Position numbers and translations under genes: made by a program | Notes under the pieces: generated by a model | What the model was told of the DNA's origin: nothing | Databases searched by the model: none | What the model saw: only the letters and a program-made list of their open reading frames with translations | Source: Tribonema minus | Lineage: Eukaryota > Sar > Xanthophyceae > Tribonematales > Tribonemataceae | Reading direction: 5' to 3' | Length of the DNA stretch: 64,000 nucleotides | Assembly (NCBI GenBank): GCA_017506865.1 | Contig: JAFCMP010000536.1 | Coordinates: forward strand, 1,822,452 to 1,886,451 | Part shown: positions 52,290 to 64,000 of the stretch, piece by piece | How positions within the stretch are numbered: position 1 is the first letter of the stretch | How the letters are laid out: every line of letters begins with the position of its first letter

Positions 52290-53654
52290 TCACAATGGTA
52301 CCAATGCGCGCTTATCCTTCGACAACATAACCTCAATGGCTGTGCGACCCGGCAACTCTGACAGCGACAGATTTACTGCGTAATCTATCCACACGTGAGC
52401 AGATTCCTTGATGAGAGTGCGAGGGGGCTTGAGCGTCAGTGCGTCAACTGCTGCTTGCATGACGCCGTCCTGGCAATTGACCACAAGCAGGCTTGTGAGG
52501 CCGGTGAGCTGGCCAATCGACTCCGGCACGATCTCGAGCACATAGCACCGAGTAAAATCAAGGCTTGTGAGGCCGGTGAGCTGGCCGATGGACTGAGGCA
52601 CGCTGTCGAGCGCATGGCACCCATCGAAACTAAGGCTTGTGAGGCCGGTGAGGTGGCCAATCGACTCTGGGACGCTCACGAGCGCCGTGCACTCATAGAA
52701 ATCAAGGCTTGTGAGGCCGGTGAGCTGGCCAATCGACTCCGGCACGATCTCGAGCACATAGCACCGAGTAAAATCAAGGCTTGTGAGGCCGGTGAGCTGG
52801 CCGATGGACTGAGGCACGCTGTCGAGCGCATGGCACCCATCGAAACTAAGGCTTGTGAGGCCGGTGAGGTGGCCAATCGACTCTGGGACGCTCTCGAGCG
52901 CCTTGCACCAACTGAAATCAAGGCTTCTGAGGCCGGTGAGCTGGCCAATGGACTCTGGCACTCTATTGAGCGCCCAGCACCCAGTGAAATCAAGGCTTTC
53001 GAGGCCGGTGAGCTGGCCAATGGACTCTGGCACTCTATTGAGCGCCCAGCACCCAGTGAAATCAAGGCGTGTGAGGCCGGTGAGGTGGCCAATCGACTCT
53101 GGGACGCTCACGAGCGCCGTGCAGTCAAAGAAACGCAGGCTTGTTGCAGATGTGATGATGCCGTAGCATTCAGGGAAATGCTTTAGCGCTTTACTTTCTA
53201 CAACAAGCGTCGGTCCCCCTTTTCTACGGCACAGTTGGGCCAGTCCCCATATTGGATTTCTTTGAACTTGAAGTGCTTCTGCCACATCTGGAACAGCGAC
53301 AAGCTCCTCCATCAGTCGCACGTTCTCCTTGTGATCATCGTCACTAAGGCGGGCCCGACGGAGATCCTTAGAGTAATCTGCTAGCCACACTGCGACTTCT
53401 CTGGCCTCATCTGCAGCTTGTTTCTTGTCCAGCATGCTCTGAATGACGTCGTGAGCATCGTCGACTAACTTGAGTTCGGCGCGGGCCGGAATTTCCTTCC
53501 ATGATACAAATGCTTCTACGGCTCTGGAAATGATGGCGAACGCAGATCCGGCGATGTTGAATGCACCAAATGTGCTGAGTCCGCTCCTGTTCGTGTCGAG
53601 GCCTGAGCTTGCAAGCTGCGGTATGTCCTCAACGCACATGTTCACAAACAGCAT
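52290..53654 (-). CDS. Leucine-rich-repeat protein (24-residue repeats)
   Basis: A single 454-codon frame from ATG. Residues 1-165 are non-repetitive and mostly helical (MLFVNMCVEDIPQLASSGLD; ADEAREVAVWLADYSKDLRR). Then come about nine repeats of the type VPESIGQLTGLTSLDFTGC.AL, a 24-residue LRR with strongly conserved ESIG.LTGLTSL, followed by a C-terminal cap (TAIEVMLSKDKRALVPL). The repeat class resembles plant intracellular or disease-resistance LRRs and the bacterial-like LRRs common in algae, which serve as protein-binding surfaces. No kinase, NB-ARC or membrane segment is visible. A block of three repeats is duplicated almost exactly. The binding partner cannot be predicted. Confidence 0.85.
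   Translation of the reverse strand: MLFVNMCVEDIPQLASSGLDTNRSGLSTFGAFNIAGSAFAIISRAVEAFVSWKEIPARAELKLVDDAHDVIQSMLDKKQAADEAREVAVWLADYSKDLRRARLSDDDHKENVRLMEELVAVPDVAEALQVQRNPIWGLAQLCRRKGGPTLVVESKALKHFPECYGIITSATSLRFFDCTALVSVPESIGHLTGLTRLDFTGCWALNRVPESIGQLTGLESLDFTGCWALNRVPESIGQLTGLRSLDFSWCKALESVPESIGHLTGLTSLSFDGCHALDSVPQSIGQLTGLTSLDFTRCYVLEIVPESIGQLTGLTSLDFYECTALVSVPESIGHLTGLTSLSFDGCHALDSVPQSIGQLTGLTSLDFTRCYVLEIVPESIGQLTGLTSLLVVNCQDGVMQAAVDALTLKPPRTLIKESAHVWIDYAVNLSLSELPGRTAIEVMLSKDKRALVPL
52488..52891 (-). repeat. 216-bp offset duplication within the LRR array
   Basis: About 52488-52675 and 52704-52891 are identical or nearly so, offset by 216 bp, which equals three 24-residue repeats. Other repeats in the array have diverged more, so this is a recent unequal crossover or gene conversion. 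Confidence 0.85.
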
Positions 53655-54764
53655 CCACCCGATGGGAATGCGCCCATCTGAGGGTTTACGAAATTGCCAC
53701 TGGCGAGGCCAGCGAGCCTCACATGTGTCGTAAAGCGGCCCCCTTATCTGGCTAGTTCAACCTAAAAAGAGGGTTTCCCCTTGGGTCGTACTTCAACTGT
53801 GTGCGGGAACGCTGTAGGGCTTAGTAATCAGACACGACTTTAACCTTCAACATGGCACAGCTTCTTCTGCTTCTACCTGTTTAGCCACGCTTGCATATCA
53901 GGGTGATATTGCACTTGGGGAGGGCGCTCCGGTCCACCTCCCACGGCACCAGGCAGTGGGCATTTCCGGCTGTTTCAAGTCAAGGTTGAGACTGAGTCTC
54001 ACACACTTCACCCTCTGTGGTTGGCACACCACCACAATGGCTGATCTCGGCAGGTGCTGACCTGTCACGTACAAGTTCGCGTAGTGCTCGGGGCACTGCA
54101 CGCACGGGAGTGTTCGCTGTTTCCGTCGGCACCTCTGCTGCACGCAACTGAGGTGGCGGCTGGGGTTCGGGTTTCTGCACCATAAGCTGTGCTGTCTACT
54201 GGCGTTCTTTCGGGAGCGGCACTTACAGCACTCGTGAGTCCAGGACTTGGGGGCCAGTCACACACGGAGTGCCGGGCAGACAGCAGCTGTAAGCGGCGAC
54301 AACGCCATCTCCGTTTTTCGGGCGGATATTTTGCTTGGGTAAGTTGCTGCCGCGCCTGCGCAGGGCACAGCAGTTGTTTACCTCTTTTGTTTGCGATACC
54401 TATCGCCTGTGTTGGTTCACGAGTCTCTGGCTCGTGTGAACGGCGTGTGCGTGCGTCAGACTGCACGCCGTGACCGTATCTTTTTTTGCGGGCGGAGCAA
54501 ATTTTTCCGTATTTGCGTAAGTTTGACAGATACTGCTCTTCACGTTCGCGTAGCTTTGCGTTCTTGCTACATTACTCTCTACGGGCTCGTTCACTTCGTT
54601 TGGGTGTGCTACTTCTGCTGTTTCGTCTAGCGTCAAATTACATTGACGGTGGGGGGGAGAACTCGAACAGCAGTCGGCACTGAACAAGCAGGGTTCAGCA
54701 AGTAAGGAGTGATACTGAATATTTCTCAATTAATTTTTCAAATATTTTTAATGAAGTAGTCAAT
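53655..54764 (+). other. Presumed 5' LTR and leader of the retrotransposon (borders unresolved)
   Basis: The stretch between the LRR gene start and the retrotransposon ORF has no coding pattern. The last 50 bp before the ATG are A/T-rich (TTAATTTTTCAAATATTTTT), unlike the surroundings. A G-rich run lies at about 54650. Without the 3' LTR, which is beyond the window, I cannot define LTR ends, target-site duplication or primer-binding site. An in-frame TGA at 54681 closes the frame upstream. Confidence 0.45.
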
Positions 54765-57700
54765 ATGTCAGACAGCGGAACTAGCTCTCAGACCAGCACG
54801 GCTCATGGAGTGCATAGGGCACCTGAGAGTGTGGGCTCGTTCACCACATCTGTGAATTCAAGCCGTAAGGCAAAAATTGAGGCGCTGGTGGAAACAGTAC
54901 CTCTGCAAGGCAGGACCATTCATAAGGAAGGTGACCCACTGACGGTAGCACTGACGCAGGTTGAGAAGCGCAATGTGGCAGCTCTTTGGCACCGCTACCC
55001 AGAGGGGTTCTTGCAGGCGCGCAGCGCACTTAAGCGTATGCGCGAGGAAGATGTCTGGCTGGTTAACCAGAGATCCGAAGTCCGGGCAGATGAGGAGCCC
55101 CACACCGGTGAGCTAGTTTTGGTGTGGTTGGAGCGTGATGAAAAACGCATTGCCCGTGTAGGGGTGGTGGTCAAGCATGATGACAAAACGTTTGCGACGC
55201 GGCTGCAGCGTGACTATGCGCGCGGAGATGATGAGCCCGCGCAATGGGAAGTTGAGTTGGTGGGGGGTATAGAGCCAAACTATGTGAGGTGGAGGCCGTC
55301 TGGGTATGAGTTGGCCATTCTACACCCAGTGAATCCGAAGGGTGCAGGTGTGAATAGGGAAGGACGACCGGACCAAGCCGTGATTGTGCAGGTTGCGCCG
55401 GCCTGGTGCCAGCCGTTGGGCCGTTTCCCTAGAGCTCATGCCATCACTGACCACATTGTTGTACGGACACTGGTGAACCCTACAGCGATGCAGGTCGCGG
55501 CGCACACTCTGACTCCTTGCATTCTCCCACAGGGTACCCCTATGAGGGCCAAAATAGGCAGGGCATGGCGCACATGTGTCATGGTGCAGGATTTTGTGGG
55601 CACTGACACTCATGTGCTTGACAGGAATGTGTTTGACCCCTTGTTGCTTGTGCGGGGCGATGACACGGGAGAAGACTTTTATTTGCCTGCGTCGTGCACC
55701 AGATTGCAAGTTGCTAGACCCTACTGGGTGCAGCCGTTGGCCCCTGCGGAGCCGCTGGCTGACGCTGCCAACTGGGCGCGCGTAGAGGGCCCATTGGCTG
55801 CTGACTGCCTTGATCCTGACAAGGGCCCTGTACTGACAGTGCCTCCCTCGGTGCCAATTGCAGGCCTTGAGTTCACTATGCCAAGAGATGCCATAACTGA
55901 CCGCTGTGTAGACCGCACTCTTGCTCAGCTCGTACACCAAATGAGGGGTAACCTCAATGACCCCATAGCTGTGAACGAGCTGCATACGTGGCGCGAGCAG
56001 GCTCACCAGTTGCAGCTGCAGCAACAGGGTTTGCCGCTGCAGCAGCACCAGCAGCAGCCGCAGCAGCAGCCGCAGCAGCAGCAACAGCAGCAGCCGCAGC
56101 AGCAGCAGCAGCAGCAGCAGCAGCCGCCGCCGCCGCAGCAGCAGCAGCAGGCTGAGCCTCAGGGTCAATGGCAGTTGTCAGAGCGGTGGCAACAACACCG
56201 GCAGCAGCAGACGGAGGACGCACAGCCGCCGCCGCAGCAGCAGCAGCAGCAGCTGGCGCCATCGCCGCCGCCGCTGCAGCAGCTGCCAGTGGCGCCGTCG
56301 CCGCCGCAGCAGCAGCAGCAGCAACCGCCGCCGCCGCCTCCTCCGCCGCAGCAGCTGACGGAGGATGACGACCCGCAAGTGATCACCAGGCAAGAGGCAG
56401 CCCAGCAACGCACGGCTGCCTTGCGCGCGATGGCTCCTCGGGCGCTCAAAGGTGTGTCACATGAAACGCTCTATTTTTTGGATGACCCCCCGGAGGCAGG
56501 TTTAGAGTACCGAGGGGTGGACAACAAGGCCATCAGCCATGAGGTCATTACGTGCATGATGCAGGAGTGGTTGGACTCGCTTGCAGCGCGTGTGTCGTTT
56601 GAAGGGGTGCAGTCGATCCCCGATCCCAACTCGGACCTGCGCACTTGTCCGTCATATGTTGCTTTGATGCTGCAATACTGCTTGTCCGCCGAGCTGCGTA
56701 GGAGCATTAAGGCGTTCCTGCACGAACATAGGGGCGCTAATGGCGACCTGTCAGGCAGGCAAATCAGTGCGTTGCATGCTCACCTCGACCGCGAGTATAG
56801 TGAGTCAATGCAGCGTAGCAAGGCAGACACAAGGTTGGAGCAGCTGCGCCTGGAGCCGGGAGTGAGCATCCAGGTATTTTTATTGGACTTTGAGAAAGTG
56901 CTGCGATACATATTGCACGGATTGGAGTTGGGAGAGAAGGTGTTCAGAGACAGGTTTGTCAGAAGGCTCATTGACACTCTGGCAAGATCCAAAGATGTGA
57001 AGGCCCGAGTTGAAAAGTTCTTGGAGGCACTGGTAGAGTTCAGGGTGGTGCTCGAGCGCCAAGGGACGGATCAAGTGGACATGGCGTCGGTAAGGCTGAA
57101 ACTGCAGCAGGCAGAGAGTGTAGTGGCTGCGACGAAGAGCATGTCAGTGCGCGCATACTTGGCGGCAGAGGTGAGTAAGAAGTCTGAGAAGCGGGGGGGC
57201 TCGACATATGCATTTAGTGGTGGCGGGTCAGAATCTGAGTCGGAAAACTCTGAGGGCGGCGCTTCTGGGGCTGACGTTCTTGCCACGCAGGGCGGCAGCG
57301 GCGCTGTGCCTAACACCCGGGCTACTGACACTAACGCTGAAACTCCGTGGAATGCAGCGCTGGACAGGTTCAGCTCCCATCTTCAACAGCATGCCAGTGA
57401 CATGAACCAGCGTTTTGACTCACTTATCCGCGCAATGAGTCAACGTCACGGTGCTCCTCTGCAAACCGCTCCTCACAGGCAGCTATACTACCCTGCTGGC
57501 AACCGCCAGGGCCCGCCCAATTACGGCAGGCAGGGCTGGGGCGCCGCGCCCAACATTGGGGGCAACATCAACTCCAGGCCAAACGGGGGTTTGATCTCCA
57601 ACACCGGGGGGGGGGCTCGTGTCGCTAACAACTTCCCCCTTGATCCCTCCAGTCTCTCCCCTGAGTTGGTGCAGGCTGTGCTGGCAATTGTACACGGCGA

Positions 57701-60700
57701 GAGGCCAGCAGTAGGCCCCACTGCGCCCACGTGGTCCACTGCGTTTGGCGTGGGGGCGGACAACGAGGCAGAGTACTTCTTCTCGGCGCGCACCTACTTC
57801 GCGTGGGATCCCTCGGCAGGCCGGGTGTGTCTGAGCTGCGACCCCGACAAGTTCGCTGAGTGCTGCTGCTTCGTGGCAGATGATGAGGTAGCAGAGGTGA
57901 GTAGTCTGGTCTGCGTGGCAGGTGCTGATGCTGGTGGCCAAATTGGCAGGATGGCCCCAGTGGTGCTCATGGTAGAGGCGCAGATTCACAATGTCATGCC
58001 TGCAGTGGTTTATCTGGATTCGTGCGCAGGCTGCGATGTGATGCAGTTCAGGGCATACTGCCTTCTGTTGCGTAAGCTGAGAGACAGGGCAGAGACGGCG
58101 CAGCAGGCAGTGCGTTTGGAGCAATCCCAGCGCCAGCCCACATTTAAGGCGATTCGTGGGGTTGGCAGGCACCTGGTAGCAGTGATGTTTATGGTGACTG
58201 TGCAGGTGGAGATTGCGGGCGTCTCAGCTCAAGTTGACTTTCATGTGAGCAACCAAATCGACCCTCAGTTCCTGCTCAGCTACAGCACCATTGCGCGTAT
58301 GCGGTTGGACATGCTCACGAGTCGCTCGCCTGCCATGGTACAGCATCCTGACTTCCCTAACAAAGCAGTCAAGTCGCTGACCCCTGATGAGGTAGCAGCC
58401 AAGCGTGACCAATGGCGTAGCGCGCGCAATGCTGGCAACCAACAGGGAGTACAGTCGGCCGAAGTTGCAGTTGACCTAGGCTCGGTGTTGAAGTTTGAGT
58501 ATGGGTCGCTGCCCGCGGAGCTGTTGGAGGAGCGTGCGGAGAATGGTGAGCCTGGCCCGAAGTTTGTGTTGAGCAAGGGCACGCAGCGAATGCAACCACC
58601 TATTGACCTTGACAGTGTTGATGATGAGAGGGTAATCAGGGTGGATGATCTGCCGAAAGCGGGATGGGAGGTAGACGTGCAGCACAGACGCTGGCACAAC
58701 GGTGAGTTGAGTGAGGTAATGTCGGTCAGCTCAGAGTCGATTGACAGTGCCTCAGAGGACGGAGAGCCGGCTGACAGGTATGTGGAGGAGACAGACTGGA
58801 CAAAGATGTCAGGTGAAGATTCAGCAGACGACAGTGACATGGAGCTCGATGCTGCGCGCACTCAGTCTTGTGATGAGACAGTTGAAGTTGAAGTTGACGT
58901 GGCACTTGCTGAGCTTGATGCAGATAGGCGCTCAGGGTGCTACGACAAAAAGGGGGGGTCAACTTGGGCAGTGCAGGATTGCCACCCAGACAGGTGGGCA
59001 GCAATTTCACCAGTGGAGCGCGGTGAGTACCCAAACGTTGAGCACATGACCGTGTCAAGCCTCACAGTGGTAGACTTGGGGGCGGGCATTGGCAGCTCCG
59101 TGAAAGGTGCGATTATGGGAGGGGCGCAGGTAGCATTGGCAGTGGAGATAGCTGATACATATGCTGCCATCTTTCGCGCATCTCACCCCAACGTGCCCTT
59201 GCTGGTGGCAGACTACACATCTGATGAGGTGTGGGACAGGATTATGGAGATAGACCCTGACCTAGTAACTGCCAGCACCCGTTGTGAAGGCGCCAGCAGA
59301 CAGCGCTTCAAGCCAGCTGGGGAGATCAGAGTTGATGCAGAAGCAAATCAGGTAACCCCAAAGTTGGTGGACAAAGCCATTCAGCGAGGCGTGAAATGCC
59401 TGATGATTGAGAATGTGCCAGAGATCAGCGAGACAATCAGCGGGCAGTTGGCGATTGCGCATGCGCACCAGGCAGGATACCATGTGTTGTCATTTGAGCT
59501 CTCAGGTGCAGACCTAGGGTTCCCTAACCTGCGCAATCGCGTGTTCTTCCTCATCACCAGGGGAGACCAAACTGTTGTAGACACCTTGCGTACAGTGGCA
59601 GGCAGGATTGAGGAGGCCAAGTATGGCGGTCACAAGCAGGAGAGAGTGCAGATTAACCCTGGTGAGATGTGGGGCGTGTCTAACCCTGTGTATGTGCTGC
59701 CGCCGCGCAATGCCACAGCTCGCTGGACACATGACGCCAAGCGCAGTGCTCCCACTCTCGTTTCACGCCACTTCCATGTGTTTCGCCAGCCTGCAGACGA
59801 CCACATGCGTCGAGGTGACATTGAGTTCTCGCTCTCACAGCGGTATGTCCCCTCGCAGGCTGACGTGATGCGAGCCAACGGCTTGTGGTGGATCAAGGTG
59901 CCGCCGGGGGTCAGTCAGACTGCCCTGGCAAACGGTTGTGGCCAGATCGTGCTGGCACCAGTCATGTCATTTATTGTGCGCATCTTGCGCACTGAGCCTG
60001 TGTTGTTTGACACGCAGCATCGCCTGCACCCAGCGGCGTCGCGTCTCATTGAGGATGGCATTTTTGTGCAGACACTTGGCCCGTATGCACTGCCTGAGGA
60101 TCACCCTCAGGGCGGCACTCTCGTGGGGCCTGTACTCATTGCCTCCTCTCTGCCTAGCACGCCTTTTTTGCGCAAGCTACGGCACATGCAGGGCTCGGTC
60201 AAGAGCGCTGGCAACAACAACCGCGAGCCAGGACCACAGCCGACCTCTACCTCAACTTCAACTTCAAGCACCAGCACCACGGCAAGAAGCACCGACGCGG
60301 ACAGCGGTGAAGACGCAAGCAACGGCGACGGCGACGCCAGCGGTGAAGACGCTGAAGGCCATCGCAGCGGCGGGGCGCGCACGCCAGGTAAGATGACAAT
60401 GTTGGAAGCATACAACCAAGTGATGGATGAGCTTGATGAGCGCTTGGGCAAGAATCACATGTCAGAAGACCCAGGCGTAGCCGCTACCGCCAATGCTAAA
60501 TTGCCAGGGTGGGACGATATTCTGCTAGTTGCTGAGCAAGGCGCATCGGCGCACAAGCAAGCTACAGTACGCGTTGCCAAACAATACCCAGTAACTGAAC
60601 CTACAACAGCAGGAGTTGCAGTGTTGGTGACGTGGACAGGGTGGGTGCCGCCGGGCAACTATGTGCTAGAAGGGGTAGTAGACCCAAAGGGGCACTGGGC

Positions 60701-63700
60701 AGTGCGGCGCCAGCGAGTGTTGGTGGAAGAAGGTAATCAAACCAGCACTATAAACATCACTATTGTGAAGCGTACCGGTAAGCTGAAACCGGGTGTTAAA
60801 GTGGGGCATCTACACTTGTTGGATGAGCGGATGTGGAAGAAGGAGGTACACCAACATGAAGTAGGCATTACACGCAGTTTGCTGAAGCTGTCCGCGGAGT
60901 CGTTGAGACAGTCTGATACACCTGCGCGTGACAGTAAATTGGCAGCGGTCAAAGCCAGGATAGCGAGTGTTGAACGCAATGATCGTTTGGCCACAGCCTG
61001 CTTCATGGTAGCGATGGGGTGTGTCACGCCTGCGGAAGCACGTGCACAGTCTGAAGGGGCCATAAATGGAACAGCTGCGGAGAATTTGTTTGCGCAGAGT
61101 AGTGCGCATGGTTGGGGGCGCCAAGTTGAAGTTGAGGGGATGAGCACTGCTGATGACAGAACAATCCCTTTAGCAGGCACGGTACCGGGGGTACGACCGC
61201 CTGCAGAGCCCCCACCAGCGAAAACTTCTTGCACTGCAGTCTCAGAAACTCACGCTGGAACTAAACAGGACGCAAAGATTGATGTAGAATCGCAACCTGG
61301 TGTTGACACTGGCGCAGGTACAGAACCTGTCAATGAGTGTACGGACGAAGAAGCAGTGCAGCGAGCGCGGGAGTTGGAGTGGTTTGCCGCGTTCAAAATA
61401 GGGGAATTGGATCACCTTACAAACAAGCAGAAAGAAATTTTAACGGATTTGCTGCGTAGCATGGCTAGGAAAGGTATCTTCTCATGTGATGGCAGGCCCG
61501 GAAAGACGTCGTTGGTCCGTCACCATATTGATGTAGGGGATGCTAGACCAGTACGTGCAAGATTGCGCAAGTACAGCTTGAAGGAGCTTGAAGTGCTATG
61601 GAAGGAGATAGATTTTTTGATTAAGAAAGGTGTGATTGAACCGTCAAATTCGCCTTGGAACTCCCCTTTGATGATAATACCCAAGCCGGATGGGGGACTG
61701 CGAGTAGTGCAAGACTTGAGGGCGGTTGATCAAGCGGTCAAAGAAAAGGGCAGCGGCCAGGATGGTTTTCCGTTGCCACGCATTGATGAGGTGCATTCAG
61801 CGTTGAGTGGCTCTGAGTGGTTCAGCTCTATGGACGCGGTAGCTGGATTCTGGCATGTTGAACTTGATAGAGAATCCAGGCCGCTAACAGCATTTCAGAC
61901 CAAATGGGGGTGCTACCAATGGAAGGTTGGACCCATGGGGCTCATGAATATGCCATCTACTTTTCAGCGTCTGATGCAGTTGGCCATGGGACATGATGCG
62001 TTGTGGGTGTATGCATTAGTGTATATGGACGATATTTTGGTTTTCAGCAAGACTTTCGAGGAACACATGAAGCATTTGAAGGTAGTGCTGAGCCGCTTGC
62101 TCTCAGTTGGTATCAAGCTGAAGCCATCAAAGTGTCATTTCGCAATGAAAGAGGTCAAGTTTCTGGGCCACATAGTGGATGCGCGAGGTAAACGTGTGGA
62201 CCCATCAAAAGTGGCAGCCATCGACAAAATACCACTTCCCACTGACCTCCATGATGTGCGTTCCTTTTTGTGTATGGCAGCATATTATAGGCAGTATATT
62301 TCCAATTTTTCTACAATCACGGAGCCCCTGGTAAACCTCACGCGCAAAGGTGTGCCGTTTGAGCTTTCTGATGATTGTGTAGCAACTTGGCAGGTTTTGA
62401 AGGAGGCGCTAAAAACGTCCCCTGTGCTAGCTCATCCAGACTTGAAAGGGATCCTTAATGGTACAGTCAAGCTGGTATTGCAAACAGATGCTTCAGACTA
62501 TGGAGTTGGAGCAGTGCTGACGCAAATTTGTCCTGTCAATGGTGAGAATCCCATAGGATATTATAGTAGGACTTTAAAAACTGCCGAGCGCAACTACGGC
62601 ACCTATGATAGGGAAGCGCTAGCGGCCGTGGAAGGGGTTCACTACTTCAGGCAGTTTTTGCATAATGGCAACACGTTCACTCTACAAACTGATCACTCTG
62701 CGCTAGCGCATCTCATGGGTGGCTCAGAACCGCGAACTAAGCGGCAAGAACGTTACATATCAGAACTGCAAGAATACAACATGGATATAGTACATAGGCC
62801 TGGTAAAGAGAATGGTAATGCAGATGCTCTCTCTCGTATCAGGGACGGTGCTTATGTCATGATGTCTGCAGGTGTTGACCTCTCTGTGAATGCAGCGCAG
62901 ACCTCGCTGCATGGGGGCGTGCAGAGGCCCACACCTGACACCAAAGAAAGAATTGCAGTGCCTGTTCTTGCTTTTAGCGACGTTGAGAAGACAGGTGGAG
63001 TGCAGTGCTCGAGAGTGCAGGTCAGCATGACAGCGGTGGCGCAATTGTGGCCAGAGGGCGAAGATGATCACCTAGGAGAACCAACGCTGGACGATGGAGA
63101 CGAGTTTGACAGTGACGAAGAAACAGGTGGTTCATTAAAGTTTAAGAAGCGGCAGCGTCCAGTTTTTCAGTCGAGTGACTTAGCAGATTCTTTGGGCAGC
63201 GATCCAGTGCTTGGCAAGGTTGTGAAATACCTCCAAGCAAAAGCCAGTAGTAGGGCTCATGGTCTAACCCCAGTTGAAGTTGAAGAGGCGCGTGCTTTTG
63301 AACGTGCAGGTTATTATATGCGCGAAGCTAAGATGTATATTGCTGCAGGGGGAAGGTCACACAGGGCAGGGACAGACTTGTTGGTTATACCAAAGGCTCT
63401 GCGCGAGCGCGTGTTGCTTGAGTGTCATGACGGTGCAATCGGGGGAGGCCACAGTGGTTTTGCTCGCACCTATGACAAGGTTAGGCGCAGGTACTTGTGG
63501 CCAGGCATGTATGCGGATGTTTTTCATTGGGTGCTTTCTTGCATGGCGTGTCAGAAGCGCAAGTCAAGGCGTGATGCACGAATTAGGGTACATGGCTTTG
63601 GAGATATTGATTTGCAACATGCATTCCAGTTGGTAGGGTTTGATATAGTAGGTCCTCTGCCAACATCAGACGATGGCAACCGTTTTATTTTGGTTTTCAC

Positions 63701-64000
63701 GGACTACCTCACTAGGTGGCCGGAGGCCTTTGCAATCCCTGATAAGTCAGCCCAGACGGTAGCGCGCATCATCGTTAGTGAAATAGTACCTAGGCATGGG
63801 TGCCCGCAGATGTTCCTGTGTGATAATGCGAAAGAATTCAGGGGAGCGTTGATGAAAGAGCTGACCAGATTGCTGGGCGTTGAGCAACGTTTCACTTCAC
63901 CCTACCACCCCGCATGCAACGGTCTCACTGAGCGCACCAATGGCTCACTTGTGAACATTTTGTCCATGCTTGTAGAAGACAATCAACGCAACTGGGATCG
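54765..64000 (+). mobile_element. Ty3/gypsy-type LTR retrotransposon carrying a DNA methyltransferase (right end outside window)
   Basis: The order Gag, protease-like, methyltransferase, RT, RNase H, integrase, with RNase H before integrase, is that of Ty3/gypsy (Metaviridae). The frame is open to the last base, so the element appears young or under selection. The 5' border lies somewhere in 53655-54764. The 3' end of integrase, any chromodomain and the 3' LTR are cut off by the window edge. Confidence 0.93.
54765..64000 (+). CDS. Gag-Pro-DNMT-RT-RNaseH-integrase polyprotein, partial (>3078 residues)
   Basis: One frame without a stop, starting at the first ATG after an in-frame TGA. Residues 1-410 are unrecognised; about 413-532 are Gln/Pro tracts; about 556-766 resemble a Gag capsid (SIQVFLLDFEKVLRYILHGL). 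No CCHC knuckle is seen. A retropepsin-like segment (about 1075-1165) has YLDSCAGCDVM where DSG/DTG is usual (Asp1085) and a later FLLSYSTIARM. About 1428-1745 is a C5-cytosine methyltransferase. A Ser/Thr and acidic linker is followed by a beta-rich post-protease segment (about 1941-2022). RT (about 2250-2480) has SPWNSPLMIIPKPDGGLRVV and YMDD (Tyr2420). RNase H has TDASDYGVGAVL (Asp2575) and TDHSAL. Integrase has the H..GGHSG...C..C zinc finger, and D,D,E in GFDIVGPLP (Asp2960), CDNAKEF and NGLTERTNG. Confidence 0.95.
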   Translation, partial: MSDSGTSSQTSTAHGVHRAPESVGSFTTSVNSSRKAKIEALVETVPLQGRTIHKEGDPLTVALTQVEKRNVAALWHRYPEGFLQARSALKRMREEDVWLVNQRSEVRADEEPHTGELVLVWLERDEKRIARVGVVVKHDDKTFATRLQRDYARGDDEPAQWEVELVGGIEPNYVRWRPSGYELAILHPVNPKGAGVNREGRPDQAVIVQVAPAWCQPLGRFPRAHAITDHIVVRTLVNPTAMQVAAHTLTPCILPQGTPMRAKIGRAWRTCVMVQDFVGTDTHVLDRNVFDPLLLVRGDDTGEDFYLPASCTRLQVARPYWVQPLAPAEPLADAANWARVEGPLAADCLDPDKGPVLTVPPSVPIAGLEFTMPRDAITDRCVDRTLAQLVHQMRGNLNDPIAVNELHTWREQAHQLQLQQQGLPLQQHQQQPQQQPQQQQQQQPQQQQQQQQQPPPPQQQQQAEPQGQWQLSERWQQHRQQQTEDAQPPPQQQQQQLAPSPPPLQQLPVAPSPPQQQQQQPPPPPPPPQQLTEDDDPQVITRQEAAQQRTAALRAMAPRALKGVSHETLYFLDDPPEAGLEYRGVDNKAISHEVITCMMQEWLDSLAARVSFEGVQSIPDPNSDLRTCPSYVALMLQYCLSAELRRSIKAFLHEHRGANGDLSGRQISALHAHLDREYSESMQRSKADTRLEQLRLEPGVSIQVFLLDFEKVLRYILHGLELGEKVFRDRFVRRLIDTLARSKDVKARVEKFLEALVEFRVVLERQGTDQVDMASVRLKLQQAESVVAATKSMSVRAYLAAEVSKKSEKRGGSTYAFSGGGSESESENSEGGASGADVLATQGGSGAVPNTRATDTNAETPWNAALDRFSSHLQQHASDMNQRFDSLIRAMSQRHGAPLQTAPHRQLYYPAGNRQGPPNYGRQGWGAAPNIGGNINSRPNGGLISNTGGGARVANNFPLDPSSLSPELVQAVLAIVHGERPAVGPTAPTWSTAFGVGADNEAEYFFSARTYFAWDPSAGRVCLSCDPDKFAECCCFVADDEVAEVSSLVCVAGADAGGQIGRMAPVVLMVEAQIHNVMPAVVYLDSCAGCDVMQFRAYCLLLRKLRDRAETAQQAVRLEQSQRQPTFKAIRGVGRHLVAVMFMVTVQVEIAGVSAQVDFHVSNQIDPQFLLSYSTIARMRLDMLTSRSPAMVQHPDFPNKAVKSLTPDEVAAKRDQWRSARNAGNQQGVQSAEVAVDLGSVLKFEYGSLPAELLEERAENGEPGPKFVLSKGTQRMQPPIDLDSVDDERVIRVDDLPKAGWEVDVQHRRWHNGELSEVMSVSSESIDSASEDGEPADRYVEETDWTKMSGEDSADDSDMELDAARTQSCDETVEVEVDVALAELDADRRSGCYDKKGGSTWAVQDCHPDRWAAISPVERGEYPNVEHMTVSSLTVVDLGAGIGSSVKGAIMGGAQVALAVEIADTYAAIFRASHPNVPLLVADYTSDEVWDRIMEIDPDLVTASTRCEGASRQRFKPAGEIRVDAEANQVTPKLVDKAIQRGVKCLMIENVPEISETISGQLAIAHAHQAGYHVLSFELSGADLGFPNLRNRVFFLITRGDQTVVDTLRTVAGRIEEAKYGGHKQERVQINPGEMWGVSNPVYVLPPRNATARWTHDAKRSAPTLVSRHFHVFRQPADDHMRRGDIEFSLSQRYVPSQADVMRANGLWWIKVPPGVSQTALANGCGQIVLAPVMSFIVRILRTEPVLFDTQHRLHPAASRLIEDGIFVQTLGPYALPEDHPQGGTLVGPVLIASSLPSTPFLRKLRHMQGSVKSAGNNNREPGPQPTSTSTSTSSTSTTARSTDADSGEDASNGDGDASGEDAEGHRSGGARTPGKMTMLEAYNQVMDELDERLGKNHMSEDPGVAATANAKLPGWDDILLVAEQGASAHKQATVRVAKQYPVTEPTTAGVAVLVTWTGWVPPGNYVLEGVVDPKGHWAVRRQRVLVEEGNQTSTINITIVKRTGKLKPGVKVGHLHLLDERMWKKEVHQHEVGITRSLLKLSAESLRQSDTPARDSKLAAVKARIASVERNDRLATACFMVAMGCVTPAEARAQSEGAINGTAAENLFAQSSAHGWGRQVEVEGMSTADDRTIPLAGTVPGVRPPAEPPPAKTSCTAVSETHAGTKQDAKIDVESQPGVDTGAGTEPVNECTDEEAVQRARELEWFAAFKIGELDHLTNKQKEILTDLLRSMARKGIFSCDGRPGKTSLVRHHIDVGDARPVRARLRKYSLKELEVLWKEIDFLIKKGVIEPSNSPWNSPLMIIPKPDGGLRVVQDLRAVDQAVKEKGSGQDGFPLPRIDEVHSALSGSEWFSSMDAVAGFWHVELDRESRPLTAFQTKWGCYQWKVGPMGLMNMPSTFQRLMQLAMGHDALWVYALVYMDDILVFSKTFEEHMKHLKVVLSRLLSVGIKLKPSKCHFAMKEVKFLGHIVDARGKRVDPSKVAAIDKIPLPTDLHDVRSFLCMAAYYRQYISNFSTITEPLVNLTRKGVPFELSDDCVATWQVLKEALKTSPVLAHPDLKGILNGTVKLVLQTDASDYGVGAVLTQICPVNGENPIGYYSRTLKTAERNYGTYDREALAAVEGVHYFRQFLHNGNTFTLQTDHSALAHLMGGSEPRTKRQERYISELQEYNMDIVHRPGKENGNADALSRIRDGAYVMMSAGVDLSVNAAQTSLHGGVQRPTPDTKERIAVPVLAFSDVEKTGGVQCSRVQVSMTAVAQLWPEGEDDHLGEPTLDDGDEFDSDEETGGSLKFKKRQRPVFQSSDLADSLGSDPVLGKVVKYLQAKASSRAHGLTPVEVEEARAFERAGYYMREAKMYIAAGGRSHRAGTDLLVIPKALRERVLLECHDGAIGGGHSGFARTYDKVRRRYLWPGMYADVFHWVLSCMACQKRKSRRDARIRVHGFGDIDLQHAFQLVGFDIVGPLPTSDDGNRFILVFTDYLTRWPEAFAIPDKSAQTVARIIVSEIVPRHGCPQMFLCDNAKEFRGALMKELTRLLGVEQRFTSPYHPACNGLTERTNGSLVNILSMLVEDNQRNWD
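59043..60000 (+). other. C5-cytosine DNA methyltransferase domain within the polyprotein
   Basis: Motifs in order: I, VVDLGAGIGSS (about 1436; SAM-binding loop); II, VEIADTYAAIFRASHP (acidic residue for the SAM ribose); III, ADYTSDEVWDRI; IV, PDLVTASTRCEGASR with catalytic Cys1507; VI, IENVPEIS (Glu1549); VIII, GADLGFPNLRNRVFFLITR (Arg1592). A divergent X is probable in WIKVPPGVSQTALANGCGQI. Spacing and about 315-residue length fit compact bacterial-type or DNMT catalytic domains without regulatory BAH or PWWP modules. Known chemistry of the family is transfer of methyl from SAM to C5 of cytosine through a cysteine adduct. The usual PPC is TRC here and the motif VIII glutamine is replaced, so activity and specificity are open. 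Confidence 0.88.

Follow-up and report, generated by a model that had tools for sequence, protein, structure and literature searches.

Can a retrotransposon carry a DNA methyltransferase within its own polyprotein, and if so, is methyl transfer the reason that the domain is kept? This question is raised by a 64,000-nucleotide stretch of contig JAFCMP010000536.1 (the window, at its full length), in which a C5-cytosine methyltransferase (MTase) domain is built into the Gag-Pol polyprotein of a Ty3/gypsy long terminal repeat (LTR) retrotransposon. We confirmed this arrangement, which a first-pass annotation had proposed. The Pfam profile PF00145 matched the whole frame with 31.8 bits and the domain alone with 36.7 bits, both above the curated cut-off of 22, while reverse transcriptase (RT), RNase H, the integrase zinc-binding domain (H2C2) and the integrase core (rve) follow sequentially, in the order typical of Ty3/gypsy elements. 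The domain shows a C5-MTase fold in a structure model and is also matched by phage DNA MTase families, and the top PDB match of the RT is that of Ty3 (E 1.2e-69). We consider it likely that the window holds one copy of a recently active element of ~12.9 kb, with the MTase between protease and RT in Gag-Pol, and that this element is one of many gypsy families with an MTase that radiated in a single stramenopile-like genome.

The methyltransferase-bearing element and its copies

The element and its parts, all on the forward (+) strand, are as follows.

53726..54036, +, 5' LTR of 311 bp, TGTCGTAAAG...CACCACCACA; same boundaries as the 5' and 3' LTRs (309-312 bp) found elsewhere
54037..54764, +, putative 5' untranslated stretch, judged from sequence
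54765..63998, +, Gag-Pol polyprotein frame, stop-free, truncated by the contig end
~55946-56378, +, Gln/Pro-rich low-complexity stretch within Gag-Pol
58005..58328, +, putative aspartic-protease-like stretch (YLDSCAG...), N-terminal to the MTase
59001..60008, +, C5-cytosine methyltransferase domain (PF00145, fold, phage DNA MTase families)
59277..59297, +, motif IV, TRCEGAS; catalytic Cys retained at 59283-59285, Arg in place of Pro at 59280-59282
59280..59354, +, 25 codons deleted in frame in sister family B (L065), comprising the Cys and the following loop
59409..59417, +, motif VI, ENV (ENA in family B), from alignments
59532..59540, +, motif VIII, R-N-R, from alignments
61677..62177, +, reverse transcriptase (RVT_1), Pfam profile
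62469..62777, +, RNase H, Pfam profile
63387..63569, +, integrase zinc-binding domain (H2C2), Pfam profile
63627..63911, +, integrase core (rve), Pfam profile

The protease assignment remains putative in the window family, as a profile search of the frame gave no Pfam match to a protease. A TGG-initial stretch starting one base past the LTR is a candidate primer-binding site. The 3' LTR of the window copy lies past the contig end; in another copy (C190), the Gag-Pol frame stops ~950 bp beyond the point at which the window frame is cut, and the full length given above combines the two copies, from the LTR start in the window to the LTR end in C190. The LTRs have TG..CA ends, and 4-bp target duplications, read by eye, were present in all four copies with both outer ends. 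Within single copies, the two LTRs were 98.4, 98.7 (over 238 bp), 99.4, 99.7 and 100% identical; these values come from five of ten copies, and in the stretches fetched for the other five, one or both LTRs were not found. Directly adjoining the insertion (window 52290-53756, - strand) is a leucine-rich-repeat protein, in which a 72-bp unit is repeated eight to nine times in tandem.

The element is multi-copy. When the domain DNA of the window family (family A) was compared with the genome, we obtained 29 full-length matches at 92-100% identity and 2 partial ones at 97-99%, along with nine further places at ~70% identity (family B and its like). Among 30 family-A loci, the 335-residue stretch is unbroken in 19, carries an in-frame stop in 2 and is shifted or cut in 9; the Cys of motif IV is found in all 30, preceded by Arg in 29 and by His in one. 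A PF00145 search of the genome gave at least 123 copies; only 123 of 378 candidates were scored and all of them passed the cut-off, so more MTase copies exist than were counted. A transcriptome-derived EukProt protein shares 61 of 64 residues with the end of the domain, so a near relative of the window element is probably transcribed.

The window copy sits at a contig end, which could be taken to mean that an assembly join, or a chance frame, brought the MTase into the polyprotein. We rejected this explanation, whose probability we regard as negligible: the same junction recurs at 30 loci on many contigs, and of the 19 family-A copies with both domains paired, 17 have MTase and RT spaced by 1584-1585 bp.

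Several other family-A copies also lie near contig ends, which would follow if the assembly breaks at long elements that are nearly identical. Some loci are rearranged. In the C190 copy (L039), other DNA takes the place of the first 1.8 kb at the 5' end, and a direct repeat of 720 bp lies at the junction; in the C91 copy (L041/L042), ~3.3 kb, within which a 1358-bp unit occurs twice in tandem, interrupts the 3' part. One RT match (G000 C311:6661-7926) falls within a 6208-codon open frame of about twice the usual length, perhaps representing two tandem elements.

Families, domain orders and origin of the domain

Sorting the 48 full-length RT matches (>=91% identity) by RT identity gave 21 in family A, 23 in family B and 4 in family C, with 91-93% RT identity among the three. 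A whole or partial MTase match lies upstream of 43 of these 48 RTs (19/21, 20/23 and 4/4, respectively). In the pairs counted, the MTase shares the strand of the RT and precedes it by 1.6-5 kb; the count covered families A-C, took partial MTase matches as present and used the 48 whole-query RT matches of 100 rows and 70 of 123 MTase rows, second pieces and remote rows being excluded. One of the five RTs without a paired MTase is at a contig start and another has an MTase 11.5 kb off. The MTase is also carried by families D (RT 61%, decayed copies), E (RT 38%), F, H, I and J. In family G (L080), MTase and RT lie close together, but the frame is broken; in family M (L089), the MTase was read by eye only and the RT located separately; and in family K (L006), the MTase frame alone was examined.

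The position of the domain differs between these families. By eye, a protease-like stretch precedes the MTase in families A, E and G. In family H, a protease profile match, below its cut-off, lies C-terminal to the MTase; families I and J give weaker hints of a protease after the MTase, and family M has a protease-like stretch there by eye. Two domain orders coexist: the protease-like stretch stands ahead of the MTase in A, E and G, whereas H has the MTase first, as I, J and M probably do.

A branch with 98/99 support divides a tree of 34 MTases: on one side stand the 12 genomic families sampled and the database proteins P0002, P0006, P0007 and P0008, on the other 15 further database MTases (several bacterial by name) and 3 stand-alone MTases of the genome; the Dnmt2-like row among the latter is long and has few columns. 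This topology indicates that the sampled retrotransposon MTases share one ancestor. An RT tree rooted on Ty3 gave the groups A-D, E-G and H-J, matching those of the MTase tree. The simplest reading would be one capture followed by descent, the domain having moved once. The RT tree, however, pairs A-D with E-G (89/88), whereas the MTase tree pairs A-D with H-M (97/97), a disagreement that weighs against our main explanation. A second capture of a related MTase could have occurred instead.

The four P proteins of the retrotransposon clade are mostly metagenome proteins. The stand-alone frames (L001, L002 and L003) are 367-390 residues long and score 113-129 bits with PF00145; L001 and L002 fall outside that clade. 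Among 5.8 billion proteins, we found no relative of the polyprotein at E 0.001 with candidates chosen by polyprotein length, four relatives at E 0.01 with candidates chosen by domain length, and at least 220 at E 0.001 by profile (7999 candidates scored; 120 listed). A viral origin was considered and rejected: three of four scans of viral_contigs gave no relative and one gave two remote ones (27-33%).

The first-pass annotation had proposed a probably separate lineage, should the host be haptophyte-like. The lineage does look separate as far as profile matches set the domain apart: the PDB profile matches listed comprise Dnmt2, M.HhaI, Dcm-like enzymes and DNMT1/CMT, and DNMT3 is absent among the 53 PDB chains listed at E 1e-3 and the 49 listed at E 10, as it is among the matches listed in the sequence, profile and structure searches. 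The best sequence match is Dnmt2, over the catalytic half only. The domain might act like Dnmt2 on tRNA or on element RNA, for example, the primer tRNA; we consider such RNA methylation distinctly unlikely. A haptophyte-like host is unlikely. Two 18S contigs (L063 and L064), confirmed as eukaryotic small-subunit rRNA, match exactly a probe sequence that we take to be heterokont, while two presumed haptophyte probes mismatch at 2 and at least 5 positions. The host is thus a probable stramenopile, an assignment that depends on these probes.

Catalytic state, constraint and methylation scar

Instead of the Pro-Cys of motif IV, the window family has Arg-Cys. In an alignment of 40 rows, all but one of the 39 other rows have Pro before the Cys (38 of 39); the one that differs, P0002, a relative of the window family, also has Arg, so related elements occur elsewhere. 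Across 11 aligned genomic families, we found Arg-Cys in A and C, Ser-Cys in J, Pro-Cys in seven and a gap in B. The window family keeps the Cys of motif IV, the Glu of motif VI and the Arg of motif VIII, and families A and C both have Cys95, Ser99, ENV and both Arg. A metagenome relative with 73% identity likewise has the Cys, Ser and ENV, its frame ending before motif VIII. Because Cys, Glu and Arg are kept but Pro is lost, the predicted activity of the family-A enzyme is uncertain; it may be active, impaired or inactive.

Family B has gone further. Its in-frame deletion of 25 codons removes the catalytic Cys and the loop after it, and motif VI reads ENA. The domain is otherwise conserved, with 68% amino-acid identity to family A, and scores 16.2 bits with PF00145 (L065), below the cut-off. 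Despite this loss, family B multiplied: a family-B query found 27 gap-free copies, 98-100% identical to L065 and one of them with an in-frame stop, and it matched copies of A and C as two pieces, as the deletion predicts. Frames of 3452-3455 codons are open in four family-B copies. The stretch that family B lacks corresponds, in the structure model of the window domain, to a less confident loop between a strand (88-92) and a helix (114-129), and the remaining fold could stand without it. On the sequence, canonical methyl transfer through the Cys is ruled out in family B because the catalytic residue is missing. Since this loop-less family multiplied, methyl transfer in cis is not strictly needed for multiplication of the element.

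Is the domain, then, a decaying passenger without function in the window lineage? Its rapid divergence (59-68% identity among A, B and C, as compared to 91-93% for the RT) would fit such a relic, as would the loss of Pro in the window family and of motif IV in B. However, the frame stays open among families whose synonymous distance exceeds 1, and dN/dS suggests constraint. Between A and B, it was 0.17 in the MTase, 0.29 in the following linker and 0.03 in RT-RNase H; between B and C, it was 0.16 in the MTase and 0.20 in the linker. These Nei-Gojobori values are rough, with dS >1 between families and saturated in the RT for two of three pairs. Partitioning the three pairwise dN values assigned B a smaller share of the nonsynonymous change in the MTase (0.076) than A (0.148). 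Loop loss thus appears to have brought no visible acceleration on the B branch, which would say little if the deletion were very recent. We consider the relic explanation unlikely.

Next, the copies themselves carry a signature of methylation. Among near-identical family-A copies, C-to-T type variants numbered 42 over 442 CpG sites (0.095 per site), as compared to 12 over 554 CHG (0.022) and 39 over 1234 CHH sites (0.032), whereas transversions were alike across the three contexts (0.020, 0.027 and 0.018). For CpG against the rest, Fisher's test gave p 1.4e-8, a guide only, as sites were taken as independent. Variant types were counted per site, between copies that are related by descent and in element DNA only; 27 copies entered the alignment, of which L037 contributed nothing, and L019, L022 and L038 were excluded. 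The element has a CpG observed/expected ratio of 0.74, and window 1-52000 has one of 0.88. Because methylation leaves behind such a CpG-specific C-to-T excess, this suggests that family-A copies were methylated at CpG.

This scar bears on the proposal of the first-pass annotation that the element methylates itself. In the form of the published model, the window MTase would be fully active on CpG in the new cDNA, hiding or marking it, and family B would be a mere passenger that depends on help in trans. The intact Cys95, Ser99, ENV and both Arg in A and C, the Cys, Ser and ENV retained by the relative with 73% identity, the Cys kept by family J, which also lacks Pro, and the CpG specificity of the transition excess all speak for it. 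Moreover, two retrotransposon DNMTs are reported to methylate CG in yeast (de Mendoza et al. 2018, PMC5890265). Against it stand the missing Pro, unlike 38 of 39 homologues, the multiplication of family B without the catalytic loop, and the inconclusive outcome that the published yeast assay gave for the gypsy-borne DNMT. What survives of the proposal is that the copies appear to have been methylated, by an enzyme that the scar does not specify; we regard full self-methylation as quite possible, if short of probable.

The boldest reading, which we regard as possible though less likely than not, is a conserved pseudo-enzyme: instead of methylating, the MTase would bind DNA, RNA or S-adenosylmethionine for the element or give Pol its shape, a state toward which family A (Arg-Cys) would be underway and at which family B would have arrived. 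Our main explanation leaves the activity of the window family uncertain. With methyl transfer through the Cys ruled out, family B must keep another property of the domain; the simplest candidates are a structural role in Pol and the binding of nucleic acid or cofactor. The domain would be packaged in the Pol particle alongside RT, where it would bind new cDNA and S-adenosylmethionine. The genome also holds families with an intact Pro-Pro-Cys, and in the Pro-Cys families the enzyme would probably act on CpG, whether in cDNA or in the DNA of the host.

Several points weigh against the main explanation. The main doubt is that family B could get help in trans from the MTases of other families. Its dN/dS averages over time preceding the deletion, and for the A-C pair, the MTase (0.23) was no more constrained than the linker (0.21), as a relic would also predict. 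The model of the window domain is mostly of low confidence after residue 210. The CpG scar, for its part, may stem wholly from host enzymes.

Comparison with known systems

Phage and bacterial C5-MTases are stand-alone restriction-modification or phage enzymes. The window domain resembles M.HhaI, Dcm-like and PHROG 116/363 MTases in fold and in motifs I, IV, VI and VIII; it differs in having Arg-Cys where they have Pro-Cys in motif IV.

The precedent is KnitGypsy-Dnmt3 of Klebsormidium nitens, a multi-copy gypsy element with a C5-MTase in Pol and reported purifying selection (PMC5890265). Like it, the window element is a multi-copy LTR gypsy element with the MTase in the Pol frame. In contrast to that Dnmt3-class enzyme, the window MTase gave the profile matches described above, DNMT3 being absent among those listed; in contrast to the DIRS-like repeats given in the legend of that paper, the window element has ordinary LTRs and 4-bp duplications; and its host is stramenopile-like rather than a streptophyte.

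The Symbiodinium elements SymbioDIRS-Dnmt3 and SymbioLINE-Dnmt provide a second comparison, as abundant MTase-bearing retrotransposons with two domain orders side by side; the SymbioLINE MTases belong to none of the named DNMT classes and are treated as an orphan class (PMC5890265). They are DIRS (with a tyrosine recombinase) and LINE elements, respectively, whereas the window element is a gypsy element with an rve integrase. The key catalytic positions of the Symbiodinium MTases are stated to be conserved (PMC5890265), while family B has lost them. In one review, Ty3/Gypsy and DIRS elements encoding DAM or DCM are attributed collectively to stramenopiles and other groups, with no assignment per group (PMC6338049). 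For a gypsy MTase without its catalytic loop, we found no report in the literature searched, most subscription papers lying outside its scope.

The role of retrotransposon MTases was stated to be unclear in the 2018 paper (PMC5890265). Here, one genome offers a graded natural knock-out series, from Pro-Cys families through Arg-Cys families (A and C) to the loop-less B, and it is therefore testable whether methyl transfer or another property maintains the domain. Because a sister family without the active site still multiplied, the methyl mark itself may not be the reason for its retention. An MTase-bearing gypsy element was already known from Klebsormidium (PMC5890265); to this, the window element adds what looks like a non-DNMT3 class of gypsy-borne MTase in a probable stramenopile, and new here are this seemingly different class, the other host group, the two domain orders and a prolific family that has lost the catalytic loop.
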